A stretch of DNA of 25,694 bases from an uncultured Actinotalea sp. (GTDB lineage: Bacteria; Actinomycetota; Actinomycetes; Actinomycetales; Cellulomonadaceae): the NCBI RefSeq assembly GCF_946885855.1, contig NZ_CAMPHH010000010.1, forward strand, positions 1-25,694. Direction: 5' to 3'. Shown here in pieces: positions 7,810-25,692 of this stretch (its first letter is position 1; the number at the start of each line of letters is the position of its first letter). A program made the position numbers and the translations under genes. Below the pieces are notes generated by a model. That model was not told where the DNA came from and made no database searches. It was given only the letters and a program-made list of their open reading frames with translations.

Positions 7810-7839
7810 AGTCACGCTCCGTCCGAGTGTCCCAATAGT

Positions 7840-7863
7840 TATCCCGGTAAGACTATCCCGGTA
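7840..7863. promoter_or_regulatory. Direct-repeat operator in the map/XRE divergent promoter
   Basis: The 10-mer TATCCCGGTA occurs twice, at 7840-7849 and 7854-7863, 14 bases apart centre to centre. The pair fills most of the short, AT-richer gap between the two divergent genes and overlaps plausible -10 elements on both strands (TAAGAC on the plus strand, TAACTA on the minus strand). This is a likely binding site for the neighbouring XRE protein. Confidence 0.5.
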
Positions 7864-7874
7864 TCGTGGCCGCC

Positions 7875-8168
7875 ATGGTCCGGCTGCCCCTGACACCCGA
7901 CGAGATCGAGCGCGGACGCCACCTGGGCGCCGTCCTGCGACAGGCGCGCGGGTCCCGTCCGATCCTCGAGGTCGCTCTTGCGGCCGGCGTCTCGCCCGAG
8001 ACGCTGCGGAAGATCGAGACCGGACGCGTCCCGACCCCCTCGTTCTCGACCATCGCGGCGCTCGCCGGCGTCCTCGACCTCTCGCTCGACGCGGTGTGGG
8101 CGCAGGTGAGCAGGTCCGGGGCCGCGGATCACGCCGACGGCGCCCCGGGCGACCTCCGGGCGTCCTAG
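7875..8168 (+). CDS. Small XRE-family helix-turn-helix regulator
   Basis: A 97-residue DNA-binding protein. The helix-turn-helix spans about residues 20-70: ILEVALAAGVSPETLRKIETGR followed by PSFSTIAALAGVLDLSLDAV, a classic Cro/C1 fold. There is no extra sensing domain, only a short hydrophilic tail. An in-frame GTG at 7866 would add three residues; neither start has a clear ribosome-binding site, so the mRNA may have a very short leader or none. The gene faces away from map across the direct repeats at 7840-7863, which suggests that it represses itself and map. Such map/XRE pairs occur elsewhere in actinobacteria, to my knowledge without an assigned role. Confidence 0.85.
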   Translation: MVRLPLTPDEIERGRHLGAVLRQARGSRPILEVALAAGVSPETLRKIETGRVPTPSFSTIAALAGVLDLSLDAVWAQVSRSGAADHADGAPGDLRAS

Positions 8169-8499
8169 GCGCCCTCGAACCCCGCGTCCGGAGAGCTCGC
8201 GCGTTCACCCTCCGGAGGTCCTCGCGCACCACGCGGCCACGCGGCCACGCGGCTGACCGCTGACTCGGTCCACGATCGGTCCCCTCGAGACCGGGGCCGG
8301 TCCGGGAGCGGCCCACTGTGTCGTCCGTGCGCGGCGACCGGGGCACCGGGACGGCCTCCTGGGCTCCCTCGTCGAACACCGAACGCGCGCACGCTACGAC
8401 CGGTCGTTTCGGGCATACCGCGCACGAGCGGAACCGCCGTCATCTCGACGACGCCGCGGCGCTCGCAGGAGTCCCCCGCTGCGGGGTCCTGCACCCGCG

Positions 8500-12108: not shown

Positions 12109-12117
12109 GGATGTGAC

Positions 12118-13260
12118 ATGTCCCCCGACCGCACCACGCAGCACCCGATCCGGGTGTGGGACTACCTGCCCGAGTACGCGGCCGAGCGTGCCGACCTGCT
12201 CGACGCGGTCGAGACCGTGCTCGGTTCCGGGCAGCTCGTGCTCGGGCCCTCGGTGGAGGCGTTCGAGCAGGAGTTCGCCGCCTACCACGGCCGCAAGCAC
12301 GGCATCGGTGTCGACAACGGCACGAACGCCCTGGTCCTCGCCCTCCGTGCGGTCGGCGTCGGTCCCGGTGACGAGGTCGTCACCGTGTCGAACACCGCCG
12401 CGCCGACCGTCGTCGCGATCGAGGCCGTCGGTGCACGGGCCGTCTTCGTCGACGTCGACGAAGACACCTACCTCATGGACGTGAGCCGCCTCCGCGCGGC
12501 GGTCACCGCGCGGACCCGGTGCCTGCTGCCGGTGCACCTCTACGGGCAGGCGGTCGCGATGGAGGCCGTCACGGAGGTGGCGCGCGAGCACGGCCTCGCG
12601 GTCGTCGAGGACTGCGCGCAGGCGCACGGCGCGCGACGAAACGGCCGCGTCGTCGGCTCGATGGGCGACGCCGCCGCGTTCTCCTTCTACCCGACCAAGG
12701 TCCTCGGCGCGTACGGCGACGGCGGTGCCGTCCTCACGGACAGCGACGACGTCCACGCCTCGGTCAGGCGACAGCGCTACTACGGGATGGAGGACCGGTA
12801 CTACGTCGTCAGCACCCCCGGCGGCAACTCCCGTCTGGACGAGCTCCAGGCGGAGATCCTCCGCCGCAAGCTGAAGCGCCTGGACGCCTATGTGACCGCC
12901 CGCCGCCGGATCGCCGCCGACTACGCGGCCGCGCTGGGCGACACGTCCCTCAGGCTGCCCGTCACCGCGCCCGGGAACGACCACGTCTACTACGTCTACG
13001 TCGTGCGCCATCCGGCACGCGAGGAGATCCTCGCGCGGCTCGCCGAGCGGGGCGTGGCGCTCAACGTCAGCTATCGGTGGCCGGTCCACACCATGTCCGG
13101 GTTCGCGCATCTGGCCAGCCCCGCAGGATCCCTGCCGGTCACCGAGCGGCTGGCCGACGAGATCTTCTCCCTGCCGATGTACCCGTCCCTGCCGGATGAA
13201 CGCAGGTCGCTCGTCGTCGACGAGCTGCGCGCCGTGCTCGACTCGCTCGGGGCCCGCTGA
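12118..13260 (+). CDS. DegT/DnrJ/EryC1 family PLP sugar aminotransferase
   Basis: A 380-residue PLP enzyme. Visible signatures are DNGTNAL (cofactor phosphate site), the [11 protein letters not shown] strand with Asp165, and [18 protein letters not shown] with the Schiff-base Lys194. The FYPTK-x-LGA-x-GDGG version is typical of the TylB/EryCI/DesV group that aminates C-3 of dTDP-3-keto sugars, and EvaB belongs here too. ATG at 12118 follows GAGG. Together with the C-methyltransferase, 2,3-dehydratase and ketoreductase it gives the epivancosamine/kijanose logic: amination then methylation at C-3. C-4 amination cannot be ruled out from sequence alone. It is the last gene of the plus-strand operon. 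Confidence 0.92.
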
Positions 13261-13317: not shown

Positions 13318-13352
13318 AGGACGCCGCCTCAGCCTGCCCCGGCGGGCGTCCT
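13318..13352. terminator. Hairpin at the convergent junction of sugar and RiPP operons
   Basis: AGGACGCCGCC (13318-13328) pairs with GGCGGGCGTCCT (13341-13352) with one bulged G around a 12-base loop. It spans the stop codon of the LanKC gene. No T-run is present; it could act as a bidirectional terminator of the two convergent operons, but this is weak. Confidence 0.35.
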
Positions 13353-15995
13353 CACAGCCCACGGGGACGAGCCGTCCGGGGCCGTGGTCAGACCCGTGCC
13401 GAAGAGGTGCAACGGGCGTGGGGACCCGGCGCGACCACCGAGAACCCGGTCCAGGACCGCGACCAGCCCTGCGGCCCCGGTACCCAGGTCGCAGGACAGC
13501 CGCAGCAGGGCGTCGCCGAGGAAGCCGGACCCGTGGGCATCCCGGACCTCGACGAGGCCGAGCGCAGGCAGATGGGCCGCCGCAGCCGCAGCGACGGCCT
13601 CGGGCGAGCTGTGCAGGGAGATAGCGACGAGCAGCTCGCCCGCCCGGCCGTGCAGCAACCCGGGGGTGAGCCGCGCCGACACCGCGCCGGCGGCCGCAAC
13701 GGACTCGCAGAACCCGACGAGGTCCTGGCCCACCCCGTGCTCGAGGAGCATCTGTACGGCCAGAGCCACGCCGCCGGCCTCGGCAACCGAGCCGTTGGCG
13801 ACGGGTCCTGCCCGGTGCCGCGACGCCGTGAGCCGCGCGAGGGCGTCGACGTCCGCCCGGACCGCCGCCTCGGCGGCGGTGAGCAGGACGTCGTCCCCGG
13901 TGAGGTCATGCAGTCCGAGGAGGAACAGCGCCTCGCCCGAGCGTCCCCGCAGGAGGCCGCTGAGCTGGGCGGAACGCGCCCCGTCCTCCCCCTGCGCAGC
14001 GGGACGCCCGGCGATCAACCGGTCACCAGCCTCGCGGGCGCCGGCGAGGGCGGACACGTCCCCCGTCCTCGCCGCGAACCAGGTGAGGGCGGCACCGATC
14101 CCCGCCAGGCCGGAGAACAGGCTCCGGTCCTGGACCCGCTCGACCGCCGCCGCCAGCCCCGCCGCCAGCTCCCGGGCGGGATCCGTGGCGCCCAGGCACT
14201 CCAGGGCGTAAGCGACGCCGGCGGCGCCGTCGTACAGTCCCGCCGACAGAGCCGGGGCGCGCCTCACGGCCGCGAGGAGCCAGTCCACGTGCGCCTCGGG
14301 TACCTCGACCCGTGACTCGTGCAGTGCCAGCAGCACACCTGCTGCGCCGTTCGACAGGCCCAGGCCTCCGGCGGGGTGGGCGAACTGGGCGACGTCGCCG
14401 GGGTACAGCCGGTCGTCCCGTTCGGGTGTGGCATGAGCGAGGATCCACCGCGCGATCCTCGTCCGGACGTCGGGCCAGCCGGACGGGCCGACGTCCGCGA
14501 GGCGCGGGCCGTCATCGTCCCGACCGCCCCCTTGGGGCCGTCGCTCGGCCGGCGGCCGCTCTGCTCCCACGACTCCCCTCGTGGACAGACCCGGGGCTTC
14601 GAGGTCCCGGCGCACCGCAGCCTCGAAGCCCTCCGGCAGCCGGAAGCGCGAGCGCAGGAGCTCGAGCACCTCGTCCAGCGCGCCGGGGCTCCACCCGAGC
14701 GTCATGGTGCACTCGGGGAGGAGGACGGCGAGCCGCAGGCAGCCGACGGCGTACCTGTCCAGGGCGACACCGCGGTGGCCGGACGGCGCTCGGAACCCCG
14801 GCGCCGCGAAGACCTGCGCGGCGTCCTCCTCCACGGGGGTCGCCGTCTCCAGGTCGATGAACCGCACCGAGTCGTCCTCGCGCACCAGGATGTTCCCGGG
14901 GTGAAGGTCCCCGAAGACGACGCCACGGCTGTGCATCGCAGCGACACCCCGGTCCACCTCGTCAACGATCGCGAGCATGCGGCGCGTATAGGCCTCCACT
15001 GCACCGGGTTCGGCCGAGCCGCGCAGCATCGGGTGCTGCTGCCCGATGAGGTCGACCAGACTGACCCCCTCGACGAACTCACGCGCCAGGAAGTGGTGCT
15101 CGTGCCCCCGCACGTGCGCGACGAGCTCGGGCACGACGGCGACGCCTGCGAGGCGTTCGTGGGCCCAGAGCTCGCGCCGCTGCCTCTCGACGGCGTCCCG
15201 GTCCAGCTCGTCCAGCCCCGCGAACGGCCTGGCCTCCTTGAGCAGCACCGTCCGACCTGTAGGACGGTGGACCGCCCGGTAGACCCCGCCCCCGTTGGAG
15301 AAGTACAGCGCTCGTTCGACGCTGAAGGGGAAGTCGGTCAGGACTCCCTGCCGGCGGGCTTCGAGCGCCTCGTCGAGGCAGGCCGGCACCGGAGCCCAGG
15401 CGGGTGGGCGGAAGGACGCCGTGCGACGGTCCTCGACCAGATTCCCCTCCGGGTCGCGGATGCAGTGCGTCATCCGGCCGCTCCCGTCCTGGACGACCTC
15501 GCTGACGAAGGCTCCGTAGCGCACGTAGAGCGGTCCCGACCCCCACCTGAGGTCGCTGAGGATGTACGGGCCCTGCTCGCCCTCGAGACGGGTCCCCAGC
15601 TCCCGGAGCGTCGTGCCGAGCACCTCGTCGTCCGACGGGTAGATGGTGATGAACTTGCCGCTGCCGCCCCGGTCGGCGTCCTTGGCGCTGCGCCGTCGCA
15701 GCACTGCGGGCGCGCTGAGCACCTTCAGCTGCAGCCCTCGGTCGAAGCAGTACCCCAGGACGGCGTCGAGCACCCTCTCGGCGTTGTCCGGACGGGCGGA
15801 GACGTGGATCTTCCACCCCTGGCGCACGAGGAGCACGTCCTGAGGCACCAGGTGCGTCCACTCCGGTCCGACCCGCCGCTCCCATCCGGGTGGTGGAGCC
15901 TGCTCCAGCGCCCGGAACGGACGATGGGTGAGCGCCGGTCCGAGGTCGTAGAAGGGCGTCCCGGGGTGGCAGAACGGGAGATGGTGACGGTTCAC
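13329..15995 (-). CDS. lanKC: Class III lanthipeptide synthetase LanKC
   Basis: An 888-residue trifunctional enzyme starting at a GTG that overlaps the stop of the M50 protease (GTGA). Residues 1-210 are the phospho-Ser/Thr lyase domain. Residues about 225-500 are the Ser/Thr kinase, with the Gly-rich SNGGGVYRAV, Lys253, catalytic G-D363-LHPGN and D381-L-E in place of DFG. Residues about 505-888 are the LanC-like domain with repeated GLYDGAAGVA, FSGLAGIG, LLRGRSGEALF and LLHGRAGELL. The LanC zinc ligands (Cys, Cys-His-Gly) are absent, which places it in class III and not class IV. It should phosphorylate and eliminate Ser/Thr to Dha/Dhb. The two precursors here lack Cys, so thioether or labionin rings cannot form; dehydration alone is the probable output. 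It is the last gene of the operon. Confidence 0.92.
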   Translation of the reverse strand: MNRHHLPFCHPGTPFYDLGPALTHRPFRALEQAPPPGWERRVGPEWTHLVPQDVLLVRQGWKIHVSARPDNAERVLDAVLGYCFDRGLQLKVLSAPAVLRRRSAKDADRGGSGKFITIYPSDDEVLGTTLRELGTRLEGEQGPYILSDLRWGSGPLYVRYGAFVSEVVQDGSGRMTHCIRDPEGNLVEDRRTASFRPPAWAPVPACLDEALEARRQGVLTDFPFSVERALYFSNGGGVYRAVHRPTGRTVLLKEARPFAGLDELDRDAVERQRRELWAHERLAGVAVVPELVAHVRGHEHHFLAREFVEGVSLVDLIGQQHPMLRGSAEPGAVEAYTRRMLAIVDEVDRGVAAMHSRGVVFGDLHPGNILVREDDSVRFIDLETATPVEEDAAQVFAAPGFRAPSGHRGVALDRYAVGCLRLAVLLPECTMTLGWSPGALDEVLELLRSRFRLPEGFEAAVRRDLEAPGLSTRGVVGAERPPAERRPQGGGRDDDGPRLADVGPSGWPDVRTRIARWILAHATPERDDRLYPGDVAQFAHPAGGLGLSNGAAGVLLALHESRVEVPEAHVDWLLAAVRRAPALSAGLYDGAAGVAYALECLGATDPARELAAGLAAAVERVQDRSLFSGLAGIGAALTWFAARTGDVSALAGAREAGDRLIAGRPAAQGEDGARSAQLSGLLRGRSGEALFLLGLHDLTGDDVLLTAAEAAVRADVDALARLTASRHRAGPVANGSVAEAGGVALAVQMLLEHGVGQDLVGFCESVAAAGAVSARLTPGLLHGRAGELLVAISLHSSPEAVAAAAAAHLPALGLVEVRDAHGSGFLGDALLRLSCDLGTGAAGLVAVLDRVLGGRAGSPRPLHLFGTGLTTAPDGSSPWAVRTPAGAG

Positions 15996-17638
15996 GAGAT
16001 CCCCACGGCGAGGTAGGTGAGGTAGAGCCAGTGCCCGAGCCGACGTTCGCCCGCGTCGACGAGCGCGACGCCTCCGTCCGGATCGGCGCCGTCCAGGTCC
16101 ACCAACCAGGCATGCGCCGGAATCGTGACGTCGCTGTCCACCACGATCGGGAGGAACGCAGCGGCAGGGACCTCGACGCGATGCTCCACCGGCCCGGTCA
16201 GGACGCCGCTCGCCTGGCTCCGGGACAGCACCACACCCGCCCGCAGGACCTCCACCGGCGCTCCCGCAGGCAGATCCGGCACCGCCACCCCTTCGGGAAC
16301 CACCACGAGCGGCACACCCTCCGCCTCGACGTACGTGGCGGGGACCCGGTACGGCACCTGCACGGTCGTGAGGACGAGGCCCAACGCCCCGGCGCCGGCG
16401 GTGAGCACCGCCGCGACACGACGCCGGCGTGCGCCGTTGCGACGTCCTGCGCCGACGAGTCGCCTGACGCCCTGGACGAGCAGGGCGACGAGGTAGACCG
16501 CGGCCACGAGCAGGACCGCCAGGCCCACAGGCCCGGCACGGCTGAGGAGGGCGACGTAGAGCGCGAGGACCGACACCGCCACGTACCACGGGAACATCAC
16601 GCTCGCGGCGCCGAAGGCCGTCGCCCACGACGGGACGCCGGGCCCACGGACCGGACGCCGACCGCCGAAGAGCAACCAGGCCGTGACGGACCGTGCCTGA
16701 TCGATGCACAGCGTCCGCAGGTTCGGCCGGTCGAGGTGGCTCATCAGCGCGATGTACCCGTCGAGCTTCATGAGGGGGACGAGGTTCAGCACCCCGACGG
16801 CGTAACTGCCCACGGCGACGAGCAGCAGGAGGTCCCGGACGGGCCCGGGTACCGGAAGCGCCGCAGCCGCGGCGCACCCGGCACCGACCATGGCCTGCGT
16901 GACGACGCCGACGAGGGCGACGCGCACGCGCTGCACCGGCCTGGGTAGACGCCAGGCATCCGACACGTCGCAGAACATCGCCGGGGCGAGGTAGAAGAGC
17001 ATCCAGCCGATCCGGCTCGGCCGACCCCCCTCCTGCAGGAGGGCCACGCCGTGCGAGAGCTCGTGCAGCGTGGTCGCCAGGCCGACGACCAGCAGCAGCA
17101 CCACGAGCGACTGCCACGGCACGGGCGTGCTGAGCGCTTCGACCACGGCCTCCGCCTGGAGCACGAGGGCGACCAGCCCCACTCCGACGACCGCCAACGC
17201 AGCCGCCCAGGTCCTGGCCGACGTGATCGTCGGCAGACGGCGCGCGACCCGTTCCAGGCCAGCGCCCGGACGCACGATCGTCACCTGGAGCGACAGGGGC
17301 GGGACGAACTCCACCCGACGGTGGCGCTCCCGACGACGACGTCCGTCCTCGATGAACCCGGCCGCGTGGAGCCGGGTGACGGCGAGGTCGACGGCCTCGG
17401 CCGTCCACGGCGCACCGAGGCGCGCGGCGATCGTCGCGTGGTCGGAGCTGCCGTCCAGCCCCTCGGCGAGGCGCGCCAGGTCCACCCCGACGCGGACGTA
17501 CGACCGGCCCCGGTGCATCACCCAGGGCGCGCCGGGCTCAGCCGGCGCGACGACCTCGACGCCAGGGGCGAGCGCGGGCCGGGCCCGCCACGTCGTGTCG
17601 GTCTCCCCCGGTCGCGACCGGGTCCGGGCGGGTCTCAT
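15992..17638 (-). CDS. mpaP: Daptide-type intramembrane M50 metalloprotease with N-terminal PqqD-like domain
   Basis: A 548-residue membrane protease. The zinc motif H192-E-L-S-H196 lies in a membrane segment and the third ligand in NLVPLMKL-D293-G, as in site-2-protease (M50) enzymes. At least six further hydrophobic segments follow, then an exported-looking C-terminal domain of about 120 residues. The N-terminus (about 25-100) is a winged-helix module of PqqD/RRE type: a VMHRGRSYVRV hairpin, LAEGLDG, and VTRLHAAGFIEDG. It may hold the leader peptide. In daptide clusters the equivalent protein (MpaP) is thought to cut the leader. The ATG at 17638 overlaps the permease stop (ATGA), and its stop overlaps the LanKC start. 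Confidence 0.88.
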   Translation of the reverse strand: MRPARTRSRPGETDTTWRARPALAPGVEVVAPAEPGAPWVMHRGRSYVRVGVDLARLAEGLDGSSDHATIAARLGAPWTAEAVDLAVTRLHAAGFIEDGRRRRERHRRVEFVPPLSLQVTIVRPGAGLERVARRLPTITSARTWAAALAVVGVGLVALVLQAEAVVEALSTPVPWQSLVVLLLVVGLATTLHELSHGVALLQEGGRPSRIGWMLFYLAPAMFCDVSDAWRLPRPVQRVRVALVGVVTQAMVGAGCAAAAALPVPGPVRDLLLLVAVGSYAVGVLNLVPLMKLDGYIALMSHLDRPNLRTLCIDQARSVTAWLLFGGRRPVRGPGVPSWATAFGAASVMFPWYVAVSVLALYVALLSRAGPVGLAVLLVAAVYLVALLVQGVRRLVGAGRRNGARRRRVAAVLTAGAGALGLVLTTVQVPYRVPATYVEAEGVPLVVVPEGVAVPDLPAGAPVEVLRAGVVLSRSQASGVLTGPVEHRVEVPAAAFLPIVVDSDVTIPAHAWLVDLDGADPDGGVALVDAGERRLGHWLYLTYLAVGIS

Positions 17639-18396
17639 TCCACGTCCCTCCGGCGGACCAGCGTGGCAGCCAGGGCAGCGGCACCCGTGATCCAGGCCAG
17701 GGCGACGGCGTACGCCCAGGGCAGGTCGAGCATGCCTTCCTTGCCGTCCAAGTAGATCGCCCCGAGCGCGATCGAGAACGTCCAGCTGAATGCGTCGGGT
17801 GACAGGGTGTGCAGCAAGGGCTCGACCATGAGTGTGCTGACCAGCAGCACCACGATCGTCACGACAGGGTGCCGCAGGGCCCACCCGAGCAGGCACCCCC
17901 AGAGCGCGCCGAGGATGCTCACCGCGAAGACCCCGATGAGGGTCAGCGTGAGCTCTCGGCTCGTCGTCGGCGGGACGTCGAGGACCGCGAGCGAGATCCA
18001 GGCGCTGGCAGCGGCACCGGCCACGGCCACGAGCCCATAGACGACGCCGAGACCCGCCGCCACCACGATCTTCGCGCGGAAGAGGCGTCCCCGGTCCCCG
18101 GCGAGCAGGACGCTGCGGCGCAACGTGTGCGCCGAGTGCTCCCGGGTGACCGCGAGCGCTCCGAGCAGGCTCGTGACGAGGTGCATCTGGAACCACTGCC
18201 GCGCGACGAGAGCGGTCAGGGACGCAGGGTCGGACGGTGCGGTCGTCTGCGCGGCGCCGTCGGGCGGCGAGACCTCGAGCAGACCGAACGAGTACGCGAT
18301 GTAGGCGCACCACAGCACGGCGACCCCGCCGAGCACCCACCACGTCCTGCCGACCCAGAGCTTCTGCCACTCCGCGCGGATCACCCGGCCGGTCAT
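17635..18396 (-). CDS. ABC-2 type transporter permease
   Basis: A 253-residue integral membrane protein with about six hydrophobic segments: one near residues 18-38, a large loop, a pair around 105-165, and three in the C-terminal half. The sequence after segment 2, VTREHSAHTLRRSVLLAGDRGRLFRAK, is the cytoplasmic coupling region seen in ABC-2 and BcrB-like permeases. It overlaps both neighbours by 4 bases (ATGA) and must pair with the ATPase just upstream. Role inferred: export of, or self-protection from, the membrane-active peptide. Confidence 0.88.
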   Translation of the reverse strand: MTGRVIRAEWQKLWVGRTWWVLGGVAVLWCAYIAYSFGLLEVSPPDGAAQTTAPSDPASLTALVARQWFQMHLVTSLLGALAVTREHSAHTLRRSVLLAGDRGRLFRAKIVVAAGLGVVYGLVAVAGAAASAWISLAVLDVPPTTSRELTLTLIGVFAVSILGALWGCLLGWALRHPVVTIVVLLVSTLMVEPLLHTLSPDAFSWTFSIALGAIYLDGKEGMLDLPWAYAVALAWITGAAALAATLVRRRDVE

Positions 18397-19127
18397 CGCA
18401 CACCTCCCGCGACGGGGGCGTCGACCAGGTCGAAGAAGGCCTCCTCGAGGCGGCGTCGCCCGCCCGTGAGGTCCTCGAGCGGCCCCGAGTACCGCACGGT
18501 CGACTGCAGGACGACGACGTCCTGGACCGTCTGCTCCACCTCGGCGAGGAGGTGGCTCGAGACGATCACCGTCCGCCCCTCTGCTGCCAGCCGGCGCAGC
18601 AGGTCCCGCAGCCAACGGATCCCGTCGGGATCCAGACCGTTCGCCGGTTCGTCGAGCACGACCACCTCGGGATCGGCCAGGAGCGCCACGGCGAGGTCCA
18701 GCCGCTGACGCATCCCGGTGGAGTAGGCGGAGACGGCCTTCCGCTCGGCTCCCCGCAGCCCGACGAGGTCGACGACCTCGCCGACGCGCGCGCGCGGCAG
18801 GTCGAGCATCGTGGCCCAGAGAGCCAGCGCCTTGGCGCCCGTGACACCAGGAGGCTGACCGTCGCCGTCGAACGTCGAGCCGACGCGACGGGGGCCGTCG
18901 GGCAGCTGGGCGTACGGCCGCCCGAGCACCGTCGCGCTCCCCGCCGTCGGGCTCGTCAGGCCGAGCGTGATCCGCAGGGCCGTCGTCTTGCCGGCCCCGT
19001 TGCGCCCGAGCAGACCCAGCACGCGTCCTGGCCTCGCCTCGAAGCTCACATCCTGCAGTGCCGTGGTGTCCCGGTACACCTTGGTCACACGATCGAGCAC
19101 CACGCCGGGTACGTCGCCGTTCGTCAT
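18393..19127 (-). CDS. ABC transporter ATP-binding protein
   Basis: A 244-residue ATPase. Walker A is GRNGAGKT (41-48), the signature YSTGMRQR (135-142) and Walker B VVVLDEP (155-161), followed by the H-loop SSHLLAE. It belongs to the CcmA/BcrA-like subfamily that works with ABC-2 permeases in antibiotic and bacteriocin export or immunity. The ATG at 19127 has AGGAGG about 9 bases upstream. It is the first gene after the two precursor genes, behind a 105-base gap with two hairpins, which could lower its expression relative to the precursors. Confidence 0.92.
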   Translation of the reverse strand: MTNGDVPGVVLDRVTKVYRDTTALQDVSFEARPGRVLGLLGRNGAGKTTALRITLGLTSPTAGSATVLGRPYAQLPDGPRRVGSTFDGDGQPPGVTGAKALALWATMLDLPRARVGEVVDLVGLRGAERKAVSAYSTGMRQRLDLAVALLADPEVVVLDEPANGLDPDGIRWLRDLLRRLAAEGRTVIVSSHLLAEVEQTVQDVVVLQSTVRYSGPLEDLTGGRRRLEEAFFDLVDAPVAGGVR

Positions 19128-19157
19128 CTCCGCGTTCCTCCTCGTACAGGTCGGGCG

Positions 19158-19193
19158 GTCCTGCGGGGCGGCGGCAAGGCCGCCCCGCAGGAC
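19158..19193. promoter_or_regulatory. Perfect 15-bp hairpin downstream of the precursor genes
   Basis: GTCCTGCGGGGCGGC and GCCGCCCCGCAGGAC form a perfect stem around the loop GGCAAG. It lies on the minus-strand transcript between the last precursor gene and the ABC genes, with no T-run. It is likely to be an mRNA-stabilising or partially terminating element that keeps precursor mRNA in excess. Confidence 0.7.
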
Positions 19194-19201
19194 GTCAGGA
19201 A

Positions 19202-19221
19202 GGCGACGCCACGGCGTCGCC
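19202..19221. promoter_or_regulatory. Second hairpin next to the precursor gene end
   Basis: GGCGACGCC and GGCGTCGCC are perfect inverted arms 2 bases apart, so a stem of 7-8 bp with a small loop can form 11 bases after the precursor stop. With the larger hairpin it makes a tandem structure in the precursor 3' region. Confidence 0.5.
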
Positions 19222-19232
19222 CCAAGCCCTCA

Positions 19233-19394
19233 TCAGGTGATCGCGCTGACCGCGATCGCGCTCGCCAGGTAGGCGCCGGCGCCTGCCGTGCTCACGGCGA
19301 CGCCGGCACTGAACGCCTCCCAGAAGCCGGGCGCCTCCAGGTCCTCGAGCTCCTGGAGGTCGAGCTCCAGGGGCGCGGATGCCATGTCCTGCAT
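19233..19394 (-). CDS. mpaA: Daptide precursor peptide 1 (53 residues)
   Basis: A short gene starting at the ATG at 19394, with GGGAGG 6-7 bases upstream (a second ATG at 19385 is less well placed). The leader, residues 1-22, is acidic and contains LELDLQELEDLEAP, similar both to daptide leaders and to the LxLQxLE box read by class III synthetases. The core (23-53) starts GFWEAFS and is a hydrophobic Ala/Gly/Val-rich helix ending SAIT. The C-terminal Thr is the residue that daptide enzymes turn into the dimethyl-diamine. The core holds six Ser/Thr and no Cys. Its pattern Y-x2-SA-x-A-x-SAIT at the C-terminus is shared exactly with precursor 2. Confidence 0.93.
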   Translation of the reverse strand: MQDMASAPLELDLQELEDLEAPGFWEAFSAGVAVSTAGAGAYLASAIAVSAIT

Positions 19395-19440
19395 GTGTTC
19401 CCTCCCTTCGGTGGTCGTCTCGGTCTGAGCGGCATCGCGC

Positions 19441-19605
19441 TCAGGTGATCGCGCTGATGGCGAGTGCTGACCCGATGTAGGTGGCTCCGGCGCTCGCAAC
19501 CACGCCGAGCGAGAACCCGATCACGTCGCCCCAACCCGGAGCCTCGAGCTCCTCCAGCTCCTGGAGGCCGAGCTCCAGCGGTGCCGTGGTGATGTCCGTG
19601 CTCAT
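19441..19605 (-). CDS. mpaA: Daptide precursor peptide 2 (54 residues)
   Basis: A short gene with a very strong AAGGAGGG ribosome-binding site 8 bases before the ATG at 19605. The leader (1-23) carries LELGLQELEELEAP; the core (24-54) starts GWGDVIGFSLG and ends SAIT, with six Ser/Thr and no Cys. It differs from precursor 1 mainly in the first half of the core, so the two products would form a pair, as in other multi-precursor daptide clusters. It sits 24 bases after the dehydrogenase stop and 46 bases before precursor 1. The Trp near the core start and the Tyr at core position 20 are conserved in type between the two and are possible glycosylation or recognition sites (inference). Confidence 0.93.
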   Translation of the reverse strand: MSTDITTAPLELGLQELEELEAPGWGDVIGFSLGVVASAGATYIGSALAISAIT

Positions 19606-19629
19606 CTGTTGTCCCTCCTTCCCTTCCTG

Positions 19630-20856
19630 TCAGACCTGGCCCACCGGGGTGAGCACAGGTGTCCCCCCGGCCGCGGTCGCGGCCGGGACGTCCTCCGGGG
19701 GCCCGTCAGGATCCAGGCAGCCCCGCAGCAGCGCCGTCGTCTCCTCGGGCTGGACGCCGGCGAGCATCGGCAGCCCCGCGCCCCACCGTCGGTGCGTCCG
19801 CCGGGAGACCTCCTCGGCGGGCTCCGTCGCCGGGAGGGCCCGCCGGAAACCCCACCGGTCGAGCAGCGCGCGCACCCCCGCCCCCGGCTCGCTCGGCAGC
19901 CCCGGCACGCCGTCGCGCACGGCCGACCACAGGCGATCCACCCGCCGGGCGTCCCCCCACACGGGAGACGTCGAGCAGGCCTCCCACATGGCGGGCAGCA
20001 ACGCCGCGACAGCCTCGGCCTTGCCGCACCCTGCCGCGCCCGCCAGCTCCGTGGCGAGGAACCAGGTCCGGCTCGCGAACGGCTCGCGGCCCTCGGTCAG
20101 CCACTGGTCGTGGCTCCGGGCGCTGAGGCGCGCGACCTCCAGCCGCAGCGCGTCATCCGTGCGCCCGTGCGTCGAGGCGGCGTCGCCGAGCTCGACGAGC
20201 CGACGGACCACCGCCTCGCAGACGCGGTCCTGGACGGGCACGTCCCCGGTGGTCCCGATGTACGGCCCGATCACCCGGGCCAGGACCTCGACGACACCGG
20301 CGGTCACCTGGTCGGCGTCCAGCCCCGACGTCGCGGCAGCATCGACCACCGCCAGGTCGGGTTGGAGGGCGTCGCCCTGGACGAGCCTCTTGCCGTCCGG
20401 GGCGGCATAGCACGCGAAACGGCTGACCTCGCTGCCGGTACCGAGCGTCGTCGGCACGGCCAGGAGCGGCACCGCCCGCGGCCCGGAAGGTGGTAGGGGT
20501 GTCCAGCCGCACCGCTCGACCTGTCCGAGGCGACGGCGCGTCGAGGGCTCCGCCAGGCACGCCGCGTGGAGCTTCGCGCGGTCGATCACGCTGCCCCCTC
20601 CCACCGCGACGACAGCGTCCGGGGCAGACCGGGCGAGCGCGGCGTCCAGCCAGGCCAAGGAGGGTTCGCCCGGACCCCGCGGCACCCTGTCGACGTCGAG
20701 ACCCCGCCGCCGGAGCAGCGTCTCGACCCGCGCCGACGCGGTCGCGCGCGGGTCGGTCCACAGGCTCACGGTGTGCACCTCCCGAGCAACCAGCCACGAC
20801 GGCAGCCCGCCGAGCCCGAAGAGGGTCTGCGGCTCCCGTGCAAGACGCCACGTCAT
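19630..20856 (-). CDS. mpaB: Daptide oxidative decarboxylase (iron-containing alcohol dehydrogenase-like)
   Basis: A 408-residue protein of the iron-ADH/glycerol dehydrogenase fold. The NAD-binding GGGSVID is at 86-92 and VPTTLGTGSEVSRFA at about 134-148. In daptides the homologous MpaB oxidises the side-chain hydroxyl of the C-terminal Thr, so that the beta-keto acid loses CO2 and leaves a ketone. The canonical metal site is altered: where iron-ADHs have N-H-A-x2-H-x-L-G followed by another His, this protein reads ASRTWFLATELAGAAG, with no His, so it may work without iron or with different ligands. ATG at 20856 overlaps the aminotransferase stop (ATGA). A 24-base gap separates it from precursor 2. 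Confidence 0.9.
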   Translation of the reverse strand: MTWRLAREPQTLFGLGGLPSWLVAREVHTVSLWTDPRATASARVETLLRRRGLDVDRVPRGPGEPSLAWLDAALARSAPDAVVAVGGGSVIDRAKLHAACLAEPSTRRRLGQVERCGWTPLPPSGPRAVPLLAVPTTLGTGSEVSRFACYAAPDGKRLVQGDALQPDLAVVDAAATSGLDADQVTAGVVEVLARVIGPYIGTTGDVPVQDRVCEAVVRRLVELGDAASTHGRTDDALRLEVARLSARSHDQWLTEGREPFASRTWFLATELAGAAGCGKAEAVAALLPAMWEACSTSPVWGDARRVDRLWSAVRDGVPGLPSEPGAGVRALLDRWGFRRALPATEPAEEVSRRTHRRWGAGLPMLAGVQPEETTALLRGCLDPDGPPEDVPAATAAGGTPVLTPVGQV

Positions 20857-22142
20857 GCGACCGAGCTCGCCGTGGCACGTGCCAGGTACGCGGACATCCC
20901 GGTCGCGACGGCGTCGAGCAGCTCGTCGACCTCGGCGTCGGTGTAGACGAGCGCCGGCACGAGCTGGACCCCGTGGACACCCGGCTGCACCAGGGCGCCC
21001 GCGTCGCGCACGTGCCGGACGACCACGGGGACGTCGCCGGGCGGCAGCAGCTGCCCGTCCGCGGCACGCAGGGTCAGACCCCGGAAGCAGCCACGGCCCG
21101 ACGTCCCGGCGAGCCACGGCTCGTCGCCCAGCACGTCCAACCCGCGCTCGAGGGCGTCCGCCACACGCTGCCCCGCCTGGAGGACGTCGCCCTCCTCCAT
21201 CCGACGGACGACCGCGCTCGCGGCAGCGCAGGTCGTCGGCGCACCGGCGTGGGTCTCGGCGTGGACCACGACCGCGTCCGCCCCCACGAGCGCCTCCGCG
21301 ACGCGGTGCCCCAGCACGACCGCCGAGCCGGCGGCCGTCCCGTTCGTCAGCGCCTTGGACAGCAGCAGGAGGTCGGGCGCGCCCGGCCACTCGTCGGAAG
21401 CGAAGGCAGGGCCGGTCCGGCCGAACCCGGTCGCGACCTCGTCCGCGACGAGCAGCACGTCGTGCTCGTCGCGCAGGCGGACGAGCTCGGCGACGAACGC
21501 CGCCGAGAGCTCGACGGCCCCTGACCCCAGCACCGGTTCCACCACGATCGCCGCGACCGCGTCCGCGTACCGTGCCATGAAGGCGCGGAGCGCATCGACG
21601 TCGTTGGGCGGCACGTGCCGGACGAGCCGCGAGTCGACGCCGTAGAGCTCCTGACCGAGCTCCTCGCCCGTCAGGGCGTGTGCCCCGAACGTCAGCCCGT
21701 GGTAGCTGCCCTGCAACCCGACGACGAGCCGACGGCGCGACCGTCCGGCGATCACCTGGTACAGCCGCGCGAGCTTCATCGCGAGGTCGTTGGCCGATCC
21801 CCCGGACGTCGTGAACATGACGCGCCCGTACCGTTCCGGCCCGCACAGCCCGACGAGGGCGTCCGCCGCCGCACGCGCGTAGGTGTGCTCTCGCCGGAAC
21901 AGGGGCAGGTAGGAAGCCTCGCGCAGGGCGTCCACGACGGCACGCTCCACCGCCGCGTCGCCGTAGCCGAGGTTCACGTTCCACAGACCGCTCGTCCCGC
22001 ACAGGACCGTCCGCCCGCCCGTCAGCTCGACGCGTGTGCCGTGAGCCGAGACCGCCACCGACGCGTCCCGCCCGTGCTCCGACGGCGGCAGCAGGAGCGG
22101 CCAGAGCGCCGAGGCTGGGTGCCGCGTCGCAGGGGTTGTCAT
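20853..22142 (-). CDS. mpaD: Daptide aminotransferase (class III, PLP-dependent)
   Basis: A 429-residue fold-type I PLP enzyme. The cofactor motif DEVATGFGRTG holds Asp234, and LLLLSKALTNG holds the Schiff-base Lys263; TTSGGSANDLAMKLAR at about 111-126 is the phosphate and substrate loop. In the daptide pathway (MpaD) it aminates the ketone left after Thr decarboxylation, giving the 1,2-diamine. It overlaps its neighbours by 4 bases on both sides. No standalone metabolic partner for a class III aminotransferase (GABA, ornithine or biotin genes) is nearby, which supports the RiPP role. Confidence 0.93.
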   Translation of the reverse strand: MTTPATRHPASALWPLLLPPSEHGRDASVAVSAHGTRVELTGGRTVLCGTSGLWNVNLGYGDAAVERAVVDALREASYLPLFRREHTYARAAADALVGLCGPERYGRVMFTTSGGSANDLAMKLARLYQVIAGRSRRRLVVGLQGSYHGLTFGAHALTGEELGQELYGVDSRLVRHVPPNDVDALRAFMARYADAVAAIVVEPVLGSGAVELSAAFVAELVRLRDEHDVLLVADEVATGFGRTGPAFASDEWPGAPDLLLLSKALTNGTAAGSAVVLGHRVAEALVGADAVVVHAETHAGAPTTCAAASAVVRRMEEGDVLQAGQRVADALERGLDVLGDEPWLAGTSGRGCFRGLTLRAADGQLLPPGDVPVVVRHVRDAGALVQPGVHGVQLVPALVYTDAEVDELLDAVATGMSAYLARATASSVA

Positions 22143-23011
22143 CGAGGCACCGCCTCGATGAGCTCGAGGGCGTGTCGCGAACGGGAGTCCGAGCGCACGG
22201 GGAGCACCCGCTCGACGGCGAACCCCGCCTGCTCCAGCTCATCGGTCAGCAGCTCCGTCCGCAGGACCCGGACCGTCGAGGTGTAGACCTCGACCGGCCC
22301 CTGGCCGTCGTCCGGCGGGAAGATCGTCACCACCCGCGCGTCCGCTCCCGGAGCCCAGTACTCGTGGACGGCCCCGCCGTCCGGTAAGGGCGTGACGACC
22401 TCGGGACCCGTCGCATCTGCGCCCTCGTGACCCACCGCCGTCGACAGGACGAAGGTGCCGTCCTTCGCTACCTCGCGTCGGACGCAGCGCATCATGCCCA
22501 GGCGCCCCCGCTCGTCGAGCAACGAGACCGAGCTCGCCCCGAGGACGACCGTGCGGAACCGCCCCCGGAGGCGGAAGGACGTCATGTCGGCGCGGACGAC
22601 CCGGCACCGGCCGGCCTGGTCCCCGGGCAGCGCTGCGAGCTGCGACCTCAGGATGGCGAGCATGGGCTCGGAGAGGTCGACGGCCGTCACCCGCGCGCCC
22701 GCTGCGACCAGGGGCAGGGTGAGCCTCCCGGAACCCGCAGCCAGCTCCAGCACCGGCCCCGGCCTACGCCGGACCACGGCCAGGACCTCTCGGACCTCGG
22801 AGTGGTCGCCGCGCGCGAGGGCGTGGTAGCGCTCGGCACCGCCCGCGTCATACAGGTCGAGGACCAGCGCCCGGTCGCCGAGGGCCGCCAGCCGTTCCGC
22901 AGCCTTGCCGCGGACCCTCTCGGCGCGGGCACGCCTCGCTGCCAGCACGGCCGCAGTCGTGGCAGCGGACCCAGCGGCCGCGCTCGCCGCGGACGCCCCG
23001 ATGAAGCTCAC
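22139..23011 (-). CDS. mpaM: Daptide SAM-dependent N-methyltransferase
   Basis: A 290-residue class I methyltransferase starting at a GTG overlapping the upstream stop (GTGA). SAM motif I is VLELAAGSGRLTLPL (87-101), followed by VTAVDLSEPML (motif II acidic Asp). The first 30 residues are Ala/Ser-rich and hydrophobic, then Arg-rich, which could be a membrane-contact helix. In daptides MpaM methylates the new terminal amine twice to give N2,N2-dimethyl-1,2-propanediamine. Its position between the RRE protein and the aminotransferase agrees with that. Confidence 0.9.
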   Translation of the reverse strand: MSFIGASAASAAAGSAATTAAVLAARRARAERVRGKAAERLAALGDRALVLDLYDAGGAERYHALARGDHSEVREVLAVVRRRPGPVLELAAGSGRLTLPLVAAGARVTAVDLSEPMLAILRSQLAALPGDQAGRCRVVRADMTSFRLRGRFRTVVLGASSVSLLDERGRLGMMRCVRREVAKDGTFVLSTAVGHEGADATGPEVVTPLPDGGAVHEYWAPGADARVVTIFPPDDGQGPVEVYTSTVRVLRTELLTDELEQAGFAVERVLPVRSDSRSRHALELIEAVPR

Positions 23012-24063
23012 GCGACCACGCCCTCGGCTCGGGCCCCGACGACGAACCCGGCAGCCTGCAGCTGGTCGACGGCACGGTCGGCCTGCTCTTGCGTCACCCA
23101 GGCCGACGCGGCGTCCGCCGAACCCGTCGTGAGGACGGCGTCGACGGCCGGTGCGGCGTCGCGGTTCAGTCGGAACGTGCGGCCTCGGGCCGGGTCACGC
23201 AGGTATGCCGCGTCGTCGGTCCAGGACAGGACGGCCGCGGACAGGTCGTCGGCGGGCCCGTCCTCGAGGGCGAAGTCCTCGAGATCCGGGAGGAGGTGAC
23301 CGCCGAAGCCCGCGACCCGCACCTCGGCGACCCCGCGGGCGGTGAGGTCACGCAGGGCGTCGATCGCGTCGAGGTACCGTCGGAGCCACGGGCGCTCGCT
23401 CAGTGCCGCGGCGCGGGTGGTCGGGTCGACGGCCGCGCCGAGGCACACCGCGCAGGAGCCGGCTTCCTGGCGGTTGAGCTCGACCCAGCGGGCCTCGAGG
23501 TCATCCAGGCCCACCGCGGCGGCACCGAGGTCCCGACCGGTGGGAGACGTCGACACCTTCCCGTCCGCGCGCACGAAGACGCGCTGGCCCGGGCCGTCCT
23601 GAGAGCTGCTCGCACCCAGTCCGGGCAGGTCCGCGAGCCGCGCGGCCGGAGCGAGGAGGAAGGGGGGGAAGTCCCCGGCCGCCCTCGCCTGGTCGGCATC
23701 GGCGAGGAACGCGCGGAAGTCCTCGTCGCCGAAGACCCGGACGAGGGTCGGTCCGATCACGGACAGGTAGGCGCTCGTGCTGTAGTCCTGGGTGAAGAGG
23801 TACAGGTCGTCCCCGAGCGTCGCCTCGCTCCCAGGCTCGTCGAGGGTGCCCTCGTACGGGACCGTGCCCGGTACCTCCGGGTCGCCCGCCGGCACCAGGA
23901 CGACCGTGCCCGCCGTGACCAGGCCGGCCGCGACGACGTCGTCGAGCGCGGCGCGGTCCGCCAGGACGGCCACCCCCGCGCCGCCGCCGGCGGCCCGTCC
24001 GCCTCCGCGGCCCTCGCCCCAGACGAGGGTCGCCCGGAGAACGTCAGTGAGTGGTGGTTGCAT
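23008..24063 (-). CDS. mpaC: Daptide RiPP recognition protein with C-terminal RRE (PqqD-like)
   Basis: A 351-residue protein beginning at the ATG at 24063, inside the end of the LLM gene. The C-terminal 75 residues (about 275-348) read as a winged-helix RRE: strands VLSWTDDAAYLRDP and TFRLNRDAAPAVDAVL, then a helix AVDQLQAAGFVV. The remainder has no catalytic signature I recognise. The middle resembles other RRE-linked scaffold proteins of daptide and linaridin-like clusters and has a lone C204-x2-C207. In the characterised daptide pathway such a protein is needed for the MpaB step, presumably by delivering the leader-bound precursor. Residues 15-30 are an unusual Gly/Arg-rich loop. Confidence 0.85.
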   Translation of the reverse strand: MQPPLTDVLRATLVWGEGRGGGRAAGGGAGVAVLADRAALDDVVAAGLVTAGTVVLVPAGDPEVPGTVPYEGTLDEPGSEATLGDDLYLFTQDYSTSAYLSVIGPTLVRVFGDEDFRAFLADADQARAAGDFPPFLLAPAARLADLPGLGASSSQDGPGQRVFVRADGKVSTSPTGRDLGAAAVGLDDLEARWVELNRQEAGSCAVCLGAAVDPTTRAAALSERPWLRRYLDAIDALRDLTARGVAEVRVAGFGGHLLPDLEDFALEDGPADDLSAAVLSWTDDAAYLRDPARGRTFRLNRDAAPAVDAVLTTGSADAASAWVTQEQADRAVDQLQAAGFVVGARAEGVVA

Positions 24064-25081
24064 GCAGCACCTCCGTCGTGGATCTGGTGTTCGAGGGGCG
24101 TGAGACGGCGCGGCTCGACGTCGCCCGTCCCAGGAAGGACCGTGTGATGGCCTCGGCCTCGGCCAGCGCCGCATCCACTCCGCGCACGGCGCAGCTCGCG
24201 GCGAGGTTGAGGACGATCTCGTCGACGCCCGCCGCCGCGAACCGGTCGAGGGCGTCAGCGACCTGGTCCGGGTGCCCATGGAGGAAGGCGCCGCCGTCGG
24301 CGACCGCAGCGGCCAGGTCCCGGAAGCGCGCCGGCACGCCCACACCGGCTGCTCCGAGCATCGCGCGGTAGTGCTCCTGGCGCAGGTGCCGGCCGTGCGC
24401 GGCCATGACGAGCCGCGGCAGATCCGCGTCCGGACCAGCGAGCGCGACACCGATCATGACGACGACACGGGGAGGCTCACGGTCCGCCTCCGCGGCCCCG
24501 GCACGGAGCGCCGTCGCGATCGGACCCCCGACGTAGTCGGCAGGTGTCATCCAGGTGATGGCGACGTCCGCGCACGCGCCGGCCACGTGGGCCATCGCAG
24601 GCCGGAGCACGCCGGCCCCGACCTCGACGGGAAGGGCGGCACCGCCCAGGGCCCCGTCGAACCGGACGTACTCCCCCTCGATCCGGACCGGACCACCACC
24701 GACGAGGGCTCGGACGGTGGAGAGGTACTCGCGCATCGCTGTCAGCGGGCTCCGGTAAGGCTCACCGCGCAGGGCCTGCTGGAAGGACCTCGAGCCTGGG
24801 CCGAACCCGGCCACCACCGGCTTGCCCGTGCACGCCACCAGGGACCGGGCCTGGACGGCGGCGTCGAACGGATGACGGAGCGGCGCCAGCGTCACCCCCA
24901 GGCCCGCGGGCACGGCCAGACCGGCACCCGCTGCGAGGGCGAACGCGTGAGAGGGGTCCGCGGAGGAGGTCTGTCCCTGCCATAGACGCTCCACGGGGCC
25001 CCGCCGCACGGCGCGTGCGAAGGCGAGCACCTCGTCCGTGCCCATCCCGGCGAACGGCAGGAGGTAGGAGATCCTCGTCAC
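24044..25081 (-). CDS. LLM-class (F420-type) flavin-dependent oxidoreductase
   Basis: A 345-residue TIM-barrel protein of the luciferase-like monooxygenase family, starting at a GTG overlapping the glycosyltransferase stop (GTGA). Typical segments are LGVTLAPLRHPFDAAVQARSL, VVAGFGPGSRSFQQAL and VDEIVLNLA near the C-terminus. LLM enzymes of this kind occur in lanthipeptide clusters as F420H2-dependent reductases that turn Dha/Dhb into D-Ala/D-Abu (LanJC, for example LxmJ of lexapeptide). Co-occurrence with LanKC and Cys-free, Ser/Thr-bearing cores makes this the most likely role. An oxidation elsewhere on the peptide or sugar is the alternative. Confidence 0.85.
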   Translation of the reverse strand: MTRISYLLPFAGMGTDEVLAFARAVRRGPVERLWQGQTSSADPSHAFALAAGAGLAVPAGLGVTLAPLRHPFDAAVQARSLVACTGKPVVAGFGPGSRSFQQALRGEPYRSPLTAMREYLSTVRALVGGGPVRIEGEYVRFDGALGGAALPVEVGAGVLRPAMAHVAGACADVAITWMTPADYVGGPIATALRAGAAEADREPPRVVVMIGVALAGPDADLPRLVMAAHGRHLRQEHYRAMLGAAGVGVPARFRDLAAAVADGGAFLHGHPDQVADALDRFAAAGVDEIVLNLAASCAVRGVDAALAEAEAITRSFLGRATSSRAVSRPSNTRSTTEVLHATTTH

Positions 25082-25692
25082 GCGCCGACCTCTGCTCGAG
25101 GTGCGGACACGGGTTCCACGACCACCGCGGCGGTGCCCGCGGCGTCGGTGACGACCTCGGTCAGGAGCTCCGTGAGCCGGGGCATCAGCTCGCGCATCGC
25201 CTCGGCGATCCGCGCCGCATGCTCGGCCGTCTGCGTCGCGACCGGGCTCCCGAGCGACCAGGTGCCCCCCGTTCTGCGCACCCGCAACGACTCCCACACG
25301 CGCTCCTCGGCGTCGACGACGCTGTCGATGCCGGCCTCGAGGCCTGCGCCGTCCGGGCACCAGTCGGCAGGTGACACCAACTCGCCGCGTGCGAGCAGGT
25401 CGAGGTACAGGTCGCGGGTGTCGGCCCGGTAGGCGGCGAGGAACGCCGCTGTCCGTCGTCGGTCGGTGAGAGCCCGCCAGGCCCGTCGCGCGGAGCCGAC
25501 GTCGTGGAACCGCGCCAGGGTGACGTCGTGCGGGCAGTCGAGCGAGTGCTTCCGTGTGGCCGGGTCCTCCGTGATGCGGGCCGTCACCGCCGAGACCGGC
25601 GCGAAGCGGTGGCCCGCGTCGCAGAGCCGGAGCCACAGGTCCCAGTCCTCGAGCCCCTCCGGGCTCTCCCGCCACCCCCCGACCGCAGCGAC
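25078..25692 (-). CDS. Glycosyltransferase family 2, C-terminal part (partial at right edge)
   Basis: The frame is open from the right edge; 204 residues are visible and the start lies outside the window. The first visible stretch, VAAVGGWRESPEGLEDWDLWLRL, is the acceptor-side ED motif of GT-A (GT2) transferases, with the Glu-Asp acting as or near the catalytic base, followed by AGHRFAPVSAVTARIT. The next 170 residues form a helical tail without a recognised domain. The nucleotide-binding N-terminal half is missing here. Being first seen in the RiPP operon, overlapping the LLM gene by 4 bases, it is the only glycosyltransferase in the window and the only candidate for moving the sugar made by the convergent operon. 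Confidence 0.8.
   Translation of the reverse strand, partial: VAAVGGWRESPEGLEDWDLWLRLCDAGHRFAPVSAVTARITEDPATRKHSLDCPHDVTLARFHDVGSARRAWRALTDRRRTAAFLAAYRADTRDLYLDLLARGELVSPADWCPDGAGLEAGIDSVVDAEERVWESLRVRRTGGTWSLGSPVATQTAEHAARIAEAMRELMPRLTELLTEVVTDAAGTAAVVVEPVSAPRAEVGA

Follow-up and report, generated by a model that had tools for sequence, protein, structure and literature searches.

In this work, we analysed a stretch of 25,694 nucleotides from an uncultured Actinotalea sp. of the Cellulomonadaceae (contig NZ_CAMPHH010000010.1, positions 1 to 25,694; this whole stretch is referred to below as the window) that carries a gene cluster for daptides, ribosomally synthesised and post-translationally modified peptides (RiPPs). 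Daptides are membrane-active peptides marked by a positively charged C-terminus. The window probably combines a daptide cluster of the kind that also contains a class III lanthionine synthetase-type enzyme (LanKC) and a luciferase-like (LLM) oxidoreductase with a dedicated amino-deoxysugar pathway and a family 2 glycosyltransferase (GT2), which would put the sugar on the peptide. On our best reading, the product is a pair of peptides that end in dimethyl-propanediamine (Dmp) and have D-Ala (or dehydroalanine) in place of Ser; they would also bear a 3-C-methyl-3-amino-trideoxyhexose, for which Tyr is the most likely site. The identities of the genes are firm, and their recurrence as a set, the conservation of catalytic residues and the association of the cassette with Tyr are shown below. 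The linkage of an amino-sugar pathway to a daptide cluster is the new part, and it is not described in the daptide literature that we found.

Amino-deoxysugar cassette and glycosyltransferase

Four plus-strand genes at 8562-13260, whose ends overlap or nearly touch, form an EvaA/EvaB/EvaC-like cassette. The first encodes a sugar 3-C-methyltransferase resembling EvaC and TcaB9 (8562..9776; 485 bits to PDB 5t64 and 477 bits to TcaB9, 3ndi) and the second an EvaA-like NDP-hexose 2,3-dehydratase (9776..11197; PF03559, 427.8 bits; PDB 4j7g, EvaA, 309 bits). They are followed by a short-chain epimerase/ketoreductase (SDR; 11194..12108; PF01370, 80.1 bits), presumed to be a 4-ketoreductase in the EvaE-like place of the pathway, and by a DegT/DnrJ/EryC1/StrS sugar aminotransferase in the EvaB-like place (12118..13260; PF01041, 358 bits; QdtB, PDB 3frk, among its matches). 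No NCBIfam model scored above its cut-off for these last two proteins; we infer the exact step of the SDR and the positions on which both enzymes act. The 2,3-dehydratase and the sugar 3-C-methyltransferase, whose joint presence was taken as one mark of an epivancosamine-type pathway, are both there. Eva-type enzyme sets turn dTDP-4-keto-6-deoxyglucose into a 3-amino-3-C-methyl-2,3,6-trideoxyhexose.

The cassette and lanKC converge, their stop codons 68 bases apart. lanKC closes a tight minus-strand operon (25692-13329) that runs from the end of the GT2 gene through the genes for the LLM enzyme, DapB, DapM, DapD, DapC, the precursors A1 and A2, the ATPase and permease of an ATP-binding cassette (ABC) transporter and DapP. 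Four-base overlaps are found at 7/8 of its non-precursor junctions, the LLM/DapB junction being a 20-base overlap. A first, sequence-only reading of this DNA had described such a single operon with mostly four-base overlaps, and the detailed analysis bore this out; the interval that it gave, 13329..25692, holds for the operon, but the plus-strand sugar cassette fell outside it.

The same reading had named a GT2, an identity that stands, but only the C-terminal 204 codons and the stop of this gene lie inside the window (25078..25692, minus strand), the gene running past its edge. In the fragment itself we found no Pfam match and no convincing PDB match. It shares the invariant motif GGWR..GLEDWDLWLR with full-length GT2 orthologs, and the ortholog of an uncultured Cellulomonas (L001:7898-8992), 69-73% identical to the fragment, is a complete GT2 (PF00535, 73.5 bits). 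A GT-A fold is predicted for this ortholog (mean predicted local distance difference test score, pLDDT, 78.5), with SpsA-dTDP and AvpGT as nearest solved folds. In the window, the GT2 and LLM genes have a 4-base overlap.

Distribution among daptide loci

Relatives of the cluster were gathered as 47 loci, 27 by DapB similarity, a set biased towards relatives of the window DapB, and 20 from genome surveys covering 221 Cellulomonadaceae, 394 Streptomycetaceae and 396 members of the phylum (controls, 0/14 genomes each). G054, G179, G645 and G710 were surveyed but not fetched; G343 was fetched apart and counted only in the tally of 22 genomes given below. L029 is the same locus as L001, whose cassette it contains, and the two were counted once. 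L002, L009, L013 and G463 are short records, in which a missing LanKC or flank is uninformative. Loci without a match to this GT2 family, the one kind of glycosyltransferase searched for, are called GT-less.

All four cassette genes and the GT2 stand together in 9/47 of these loci, which belong to two families, Streptomycetaceae and Cellulomonadaceae; a cassette lacking the GT2 was not seen in any of the 47. Two layouts occur: in eight Streptomycetaceae loci the GT2 and cassette genes make up a single run that diverges from the LLM gene, and the daptide operon of the window and of its Cellulomonas relative is led by the GT2, with the cassette at the far end. In a phylogenetic tree of 2,3-dehydratases, which used 9 of 12 unlinked copies, a branch (97/90; 0/500 shuffles) separates the ten daptide-linked proteins from the nine unlinked ones. 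Because eight of the ten linked copies come from Streptomycetaceae, this branch weighs less than ten independent events would.

The genes rmlA and rmlB follow lanKC in 7/7 assessable Streptomycetaceae cassette loci, the eighth record, L009, ending too soon. Both also lie near in 2/20 GT-less LanKC loci with enough flank (G230 and G236; G234, G241 and G242, whose downstream sequence is too short, and L013 were left out of this count) and at GT-only G260, so that an exclusive tie of rmlA/B to cassette loci was rejected. L017 carries rmlB with a weak rmlA match only. Between lanKC and rmlA, seven Streptomycetaceae cassette clusters (L116-L120, G620 and G360) have a YcaO-like gene; the G620 protein matches a SagD-family model below its cut-off and its G260 homolog belongs to PF02624. 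The same search found no YcaO-like gene in the window or in L001. Judged by this gene, the termini made by these seven clusters may be imidazolines rather than Dmp.

The nearness of the cassette might also be fortuitous, the cluster making an ordinary daptide (Dmp and D-Ala) of the type of sca from Streptomyces capuensis and the cassette serving a surface polysaccharide or another metabolite. The cassette does lie on the opposite strand, convergent to lanKC, no cassette was seen in 29/37 loci with LanKC and LLM, and the sca chemistry was established with no mention of a sugar in the portions of the report drawn on here (PMC10036551). We nevertheless consider this explanation unlikely, given the recurrence of cassette and GT2 in two families and two layouts, the separate branch of the daptide-linked 2,3-dehydratases, the overlap of the GT2 and LLM genes, the inclusion of rmlA/B in the gene run of Streptomycetaceae loci and the association with Tyr described below.

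LanKC is encoded in 37/47 daptide loci, all 37 of which also encode the LLM enzyme; LLM without LanKC was found in three loci (L002, L009 and L013), all on short records. Of the 22 DapB-bearing Streptomycetaceae genomes, all but G260, G343 and G584 encode LanKC and LLM (19 genomes), and 4 contain the sugar cassette. In Cellulomonadaceae, DapB scored above the cut-off in 3/221 genomes. One Cellulomonadaceae genome holds three DapB-family matches within 13 kb (G106:C1:1380289-1392997). A plasmid scan with DapB returned 6 Streptomyces records, with 34-42% identity among the matches listed (5 of 6). The six daptide loci that carry the GT2 without the cassette (GT-only loci) include G106, G216 and G260, which also have YcaO, and L020, where the GT2 has a GPP34-domain protein and also a CAAX-type protease as neighbours.

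Tyrosine in the cores and the probable site of the sugar

With the window counted, the ten cassette loci have Tyr in 19/19 cores, and the six GT-only loci, which lie outside the Fisher tests, in 11/14. All cores contain Tyr in 10/10 cassette loci vs 4/24 GT-less LanKC loci (Fisher p 7.6e-6), which makes Tyr the strongest of the 20 residues compared; Phe comes next with p 0.007, uncorrected for 20 residues. When cores were collapsed at 70% identity, Tyr was found in 6/6 vs 7/24 (p 0.003), and at 60% in 6/6 vs 6/18 (p 0.014). Position 3 of the A2 core, Trp in others, is Tyr in three cassette loci (L007, G620 and G360).

Going by core composition, the Tyr common to all cassette cores would most likely be the site of the sugar. 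The sugar might instead be placed elsewhere on the peptide, at a Ser or Thr that LanKC leaves untouched, at Trp or at the N-terminus, an option that we regard as rather unlikely. In its favour, each of the two window cores retains one internal Thr, Tyr also occurs in loci without the GT, and glycocins and NAI-112 use Cys/Ser/Thr and Trp, according to the consulted parts of PMC8068269. Tyr nevertheless discriminates best between the groups; no core of either group is without Ser, cassette loci are less consistent in having internal Thr and Trp, and in the three loci named above Tyr stands at A2 position 3 where others have Trp.

Daptide proteins, precursors and neighbouring genes

Daptide and LanKC calls were made with NCBIfam models at their curated cut-offs, and other families were called from Pfam, PDB and NCBIfam matches. 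All five daptide proteins scored above these cut-offs, each encoded on the minus strand: the DUF-RRE protein DapB (23008..24063; NF041823, daptide_RRE, 340.2 bits, cut-off 150), the S-adenosylmethionine-dependent methyltransferase DapM (22139..23011; NF041820, daptide_MTase, 264.5 bits, cut-off 175), the class III aminotransferase DapD (20853..22142; NF041821, daptide_amino, 560.7 bits, cut-off 450), the Fe-ADH-like oxidative decarboxylase DapC (19630..20856; NF041822, daptide_DH, 352.7 bits, cut-off 300; PF00465) and the RRE-intramembrane metalloprotease DapP (15992..17638; NF041824, daptide_HExxH, 400.0 bits, cut-off 300). The daptide, LanKC and LLM parts named by the sequence-only reading are thus all real by their NCBIfam and Pfam scores. 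The operon also encodes the ABC transporter ATPase (18393..19127, minus strand; PF00005, 88.5 bits) and permease (17635..18396, minus strand; PF12730, 36.7 bits).

The two precursors, A1 (19441..19605, minus strand; core GWGDVIGFSLGVVASAGATYIGSALAISAIT) and A2 (19233..19394, minus strand; core GFWEAFSAGVAVSTAGAGAYLASAIAVSAIT), have the features of daptide precursors: they are short, with an ELExMEAP-like leader motif, an aliphatic core and Thr as last residue. The cores start after the Pro of ELEELEAP in A1 and ELEDLEAP in A2; as had been proposed, they are 31 residues long and Thr-ended, both closing with SAIT. Each contains 4 Ser and one internal Thr. The mean number of core Ser is 4.0 in cassette and in GT-less LanKC loci vs 1.2 in plain daptide loci. 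No Cys was found in any of 102 daptide cores (window and relatives); no cores were obtained from L002, L013, L023 and the second locus of G584. Cores of LanKC loci are often paired within one cluster, a GW-type with a GF-type partner, a pairing that suggests a two-peptide system.

Positions 1-8379 of the window are occupied by ordinary neighbours, namely the end of a biotin-dependent carboxylase, an acyl-CoA dehydrogenase, MaoC, an HpcH/HpaI lyase, Usp, a beta-lactamase-family protein and an M24 peptidase.

LanKC and its substrate

The LanKC gene (13329..15995, minus strand) begins with a GTG codon at 15995, and its product passes the class III lanthionine synthetase model (NF038151, 796.5 bits, cut-off 575). 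The lyase, kinase and cyclase domains are all there (RamC_N, Pkinase and LANC_like in Pfam). In ThurKC, the parts of PMC10604976 used here list the lyase residues K65, H67, K94, K108, K117, D152, R163 and R191 and propose D771 as cyclase base; the numbering of that paper was taken as chain 8sao + 3. All eight lyase residues and the catalytic Asp/Asn of the kinase are kept in the window LanKC and in 35/35 relatives, reading frames of <600 codons (L021, L022 and L029) being omitted. The cyclase residues are changed: the Phe770/Asp771 pair of ThurKC is Leu/His in the window, and the position of Asp771 is Asp in 0/31 scoreable relatives. At the beta-3 Lys position of the kinase domain, 23 of the 35 daptide LanKCs keep Lys and the other 12 have Arg. 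A scan of viral contigs with LanKC as query found no relative.

Since the 102 cores have no Cys and the cyclase residues are changed, LanKC fits a dehydratase without a ring-forming job, and as the cores lack Cys it would make no thioether. Classing the window as a class III lanthipeptide cluster was rejected for the same reasons. The sequence-only reading had also considered that LanKC might act on another, Cys-containing precursor, which would give a true lanthipeptide and leave the daptides aside. LanKC does pass the class III cut-off, but the operon genes in the window leave no space for a further precursor (the sequence upstream of 25692 is unseen), none of the cores has Cys, none of the 31 relatives scored has the Asp cyclase base, and the sca cluster sets the precedent of LanKC in a daptide pathway; this case is therefore very improbable, and we rejected such a partner. 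That reading had further singled out the mix of daptide, LanKC and LLM enzymes as a hybrid. As a novelty, this mix did not survive: it was shown for sca in the parts of PMC10036551 that we cite, and the pair is present in 37/47 loci.

LLM oxidoreductase and its cofactor

The LLM oxidoreductase (24044..25081, minus strand) is DapJ/LanJC-like (PF00296, Bac_luciferase, 75.7 bits, cut-off 27.9), scores 98.9 bits against TIGR03564, below the cut-off of 234, and is 49% identical to the LLM of the Thermobifida fusca cluster (L002). It would be expected to reduce dehydroalanine to D-Ala. Its best structural and sequence matches are to F420-dependent Mer; with the predicted structure (mean pLDDT 89.2), Foldseek matched both F420 and flavin mononucleotide (FMN) enzymes, the F420 ones first.

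Dependence on F420 was at first assumed, and became one of two options after searches for CofG, CofD and CofH. In 18 genomes searched, CofG scored above the cut-off in 11 (T. fusca, Williamsia and nine Streptomyces) and was not found in the LLM carriers G001, G106, G216 and Georgenia G239; three Microbacterium had no CofG above the cut-off and no LLM in the locus. At a threshold of 1e-30, CofH was found in 25/221 Cellulomonadaceae, and not in G001, G106 and G216. CofD scored above the cut-off in 161/221 Cellulomonadaceae, including G001 and G216 and not G106, and was not found in G239. The Cellulomonadaceae LLM carriers thus lack CofG and CofH in 3/3 cases and have CofD in 2/3. Compared over the family (161 vs 25 of 221), CofD without CofH is an orphan in most Cellulomonadaceae.

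A plausible, if less favoured, alternative is that the LLM enzyme makes no D-Ala in this lineage, dehydro residues being kept as in hominicin, or that D-Ala is made with FMN, not F420. The missing CofG and CofH of the LLM-bearing hosts speak for it, as do the LLM tree, in which proteins of CofG-less hosts are not grouped together, and the mixed Foldseek matches. The CofD of G001 and G216 and the first rank of F420-dependent Mer speak for F420, and the assemblies may have gaps, though for G106 a contig of 3.57 Mb covers nearly all of the ~3.6 Mb genome. By the precedent of sca, D-Ala formation in the window lineage is likely, with F420 or FMN as cofactor; in Cellulomonadaceae it may be carried out by an F420-independent LLM reductase. 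D-Ala without F420 genes is a directly testable question.

Proposed biosynthesis and its assessment

Known pathways suggest most of the following steps. The RRE domains of DapB and DapP, together with LanKC, would bind A1 and A2 at their ELEELEAP-type leaders (step 1), and LanKC would phosphorylate the core Ser, 4 per core, and eliminate them to dehydroalanine (step 2), which the LLM enzyme would reduce to D-Ala (step 3). The last Thr would undergo oxidative decarboxylation by DapC/DapB, transamination by DapD and dimethylation by DapM, giving Dmp (step 4). From dTDP-4-keto-6-deoxyglucose, the cassette would make the 3-amino-3-C-methyl-2,3,6-trideoxyhexose by 2,3-dehydration, C3 amination, C3 methylation and C4 reduction (step 5). 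Attachment of the amino sugar to the peptide by the GT2, most likely at Tyr (step 6), is suggested by gene linkage and core composition, and only by these. DapP would then cut off the leader, and the ABC pair would export a cationic two-peptide product (step 7). The computed monoisotopic masses of the A1 and A2 cores are 2923.533 and 2915.470 when unmodified, 2906.591 and 2898.528 with Dmp, 2842.611 and 2834.548 with Dmp and four Ser converted to D-Ala, and 2985.706 and 2977.643 when one C7H13NO2 sugar (a difference of 143.095) is added to these; four dehydroalanines in place of D-Ala would lower the masses by 8.063. The sequence-only reading had foreseen a peptide charged at both termini, with dehydrated or D-residues inside and a possible sugar; our results support it, with Ser as the residue modified, and its remark on glycosylation is strengthened by the linked amino-sugar pathway.

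Several points weigh against this proposal. No product is known. No cassette was seen in 38/47 daptide relatives (a few on short records), and in the Cellulomonas relative rmlB lies on another contig, not beside the cluster. The PDB and NCBIfam matches behind the SDR step are weak. Among the four cassette open reading frames there is no 3,5-epimerase, which may lie elsewhere in the genome, so that the sugar could be of D or L form; in the epivancosamine pathway the L-sugar arises through EvaD, a 3,5-epimerase-type enzyme, and as no EvaD-type epimerase is found in the cassette we rejected classing the pathway as epivancosamine. The GT2 is only partly inside the window, and the GT tree needs 2 changes, not 1, for the cassette label, which gives no support to a single origin of the cassette-linked GT2s. 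Six daptide loci (L020, L025, G106, G216, G260 and G365) have a same-family GT2 without the cassette, so this family does not need the cassette sugar. Tyr is also found in 13/59 GT-less LanKC cores and 8/10 plain-locus cores, so that treating Tyr as exclusive to GT loci would overstate the case, and the per-locus Fisher test treats related loci as independent. Finally, the nearest host relatives lack deazaflavin genes, which leaves the LLM step uncertain.

More tentatively, Streptomycetaceae and Cellulomonadaceae may share a daptide sub-family in which a vancosamine-kind amino-deoxysugar on a conserved Tyr is combined with D-Ala and an amine tail (Dmp in the window lineage), in a two-peptide system with three positive sites on each peptide. 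If so, these sites would be the N-terminus, the sugar amine and the C-terminal amine. A mid-helix sugar charge on a D-Ala peptide would be a new way to solubilise such peptides and aim them at membranes, and engineering would benefit from a glycosyltransferase able, as may be the case here, to attach an amino sugar to Tyr in a helical peptide.

Comparison with known systems

The epivancosamine (Eva) pathway shares with the cassette the 2,3-dehydratase (EvaA, 4j7g), DegT aminotransferase, 3-C-methyltransferase and SDR. Its glycosyltransferase is a GT1, whereas the window has a GT2, and the window cassette lacks the 3,5-epimerase (EvaD).

On the daptide side, the sca cluster of S. capuensis NRRL B-3501 combines, like the window, the daptide set with LanKC and an LLM-type reductase. 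As described by Ren 2023, its product has a Dmp C-terminus and five Ser converted to Ala, with D-Ala detected (PMC10036551, in the parts consulted). The passages cited mention no sugar pathway or glycosyltransferase for sca, although they name glycosyltransferases and nucleotidyltransferases in passing among daptide tailoring genes (PMC10036551); the words sugar, deoxy and epimerase are absent from the main text, supplements aside. The tfDap cluster of T. fusca (Dommaraju 2025, PMC12670281, as far as consulted) likewise has DapBCDMP with DapKC and DapJ, and besides the LLM likeness given above its DapB (L002) is 45% identical to that of the window. It differs by its YcaO, and its main text mentions no sugar genes, glycos, deoxy and epimerase being absent there. 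Hominicin, as described in the consulted parts of PMC10036551, also joins Dmp with dehydro residues, but is staphylococcal, has a dimethylated N-terminus and is presented there with no mention of a sugar. Literature searches on daptides and glycosylated RiPPs returned no description of a glycosylated daptide.

Among glycosylated RiPPs, the persiathiacins, polyglycosylated thiopeptides, resemble the window in that their RiPP cluster encodes a dedicated deoxysugar pathway, which includes a 2,3-dehydratase, and differ as thiopeptides whose named sugars, rhamnose, 6-deoxyglucose, olivose and amicetose, are without nitrogen (PMC11406533, in part). Cacaoidin, a class V lanthidin, shares D-residues with an LLM enzyme, GT2 enzymes, an O-glycosylated Tyr and rml genes in the cluster; it differs in its aminovinyl-methylcysteine (AviMeCys), N-terminal dimethyl group and disaccharide of neutral deoxysugars, with no Dmp described in the parts of the source used (PMC8068269). 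Cacaoidin thereby offers, as far as these parts go, a precedent for GT2, LLM enzyme, D-residues and O-glycosylated Tyr in a single RiPP.

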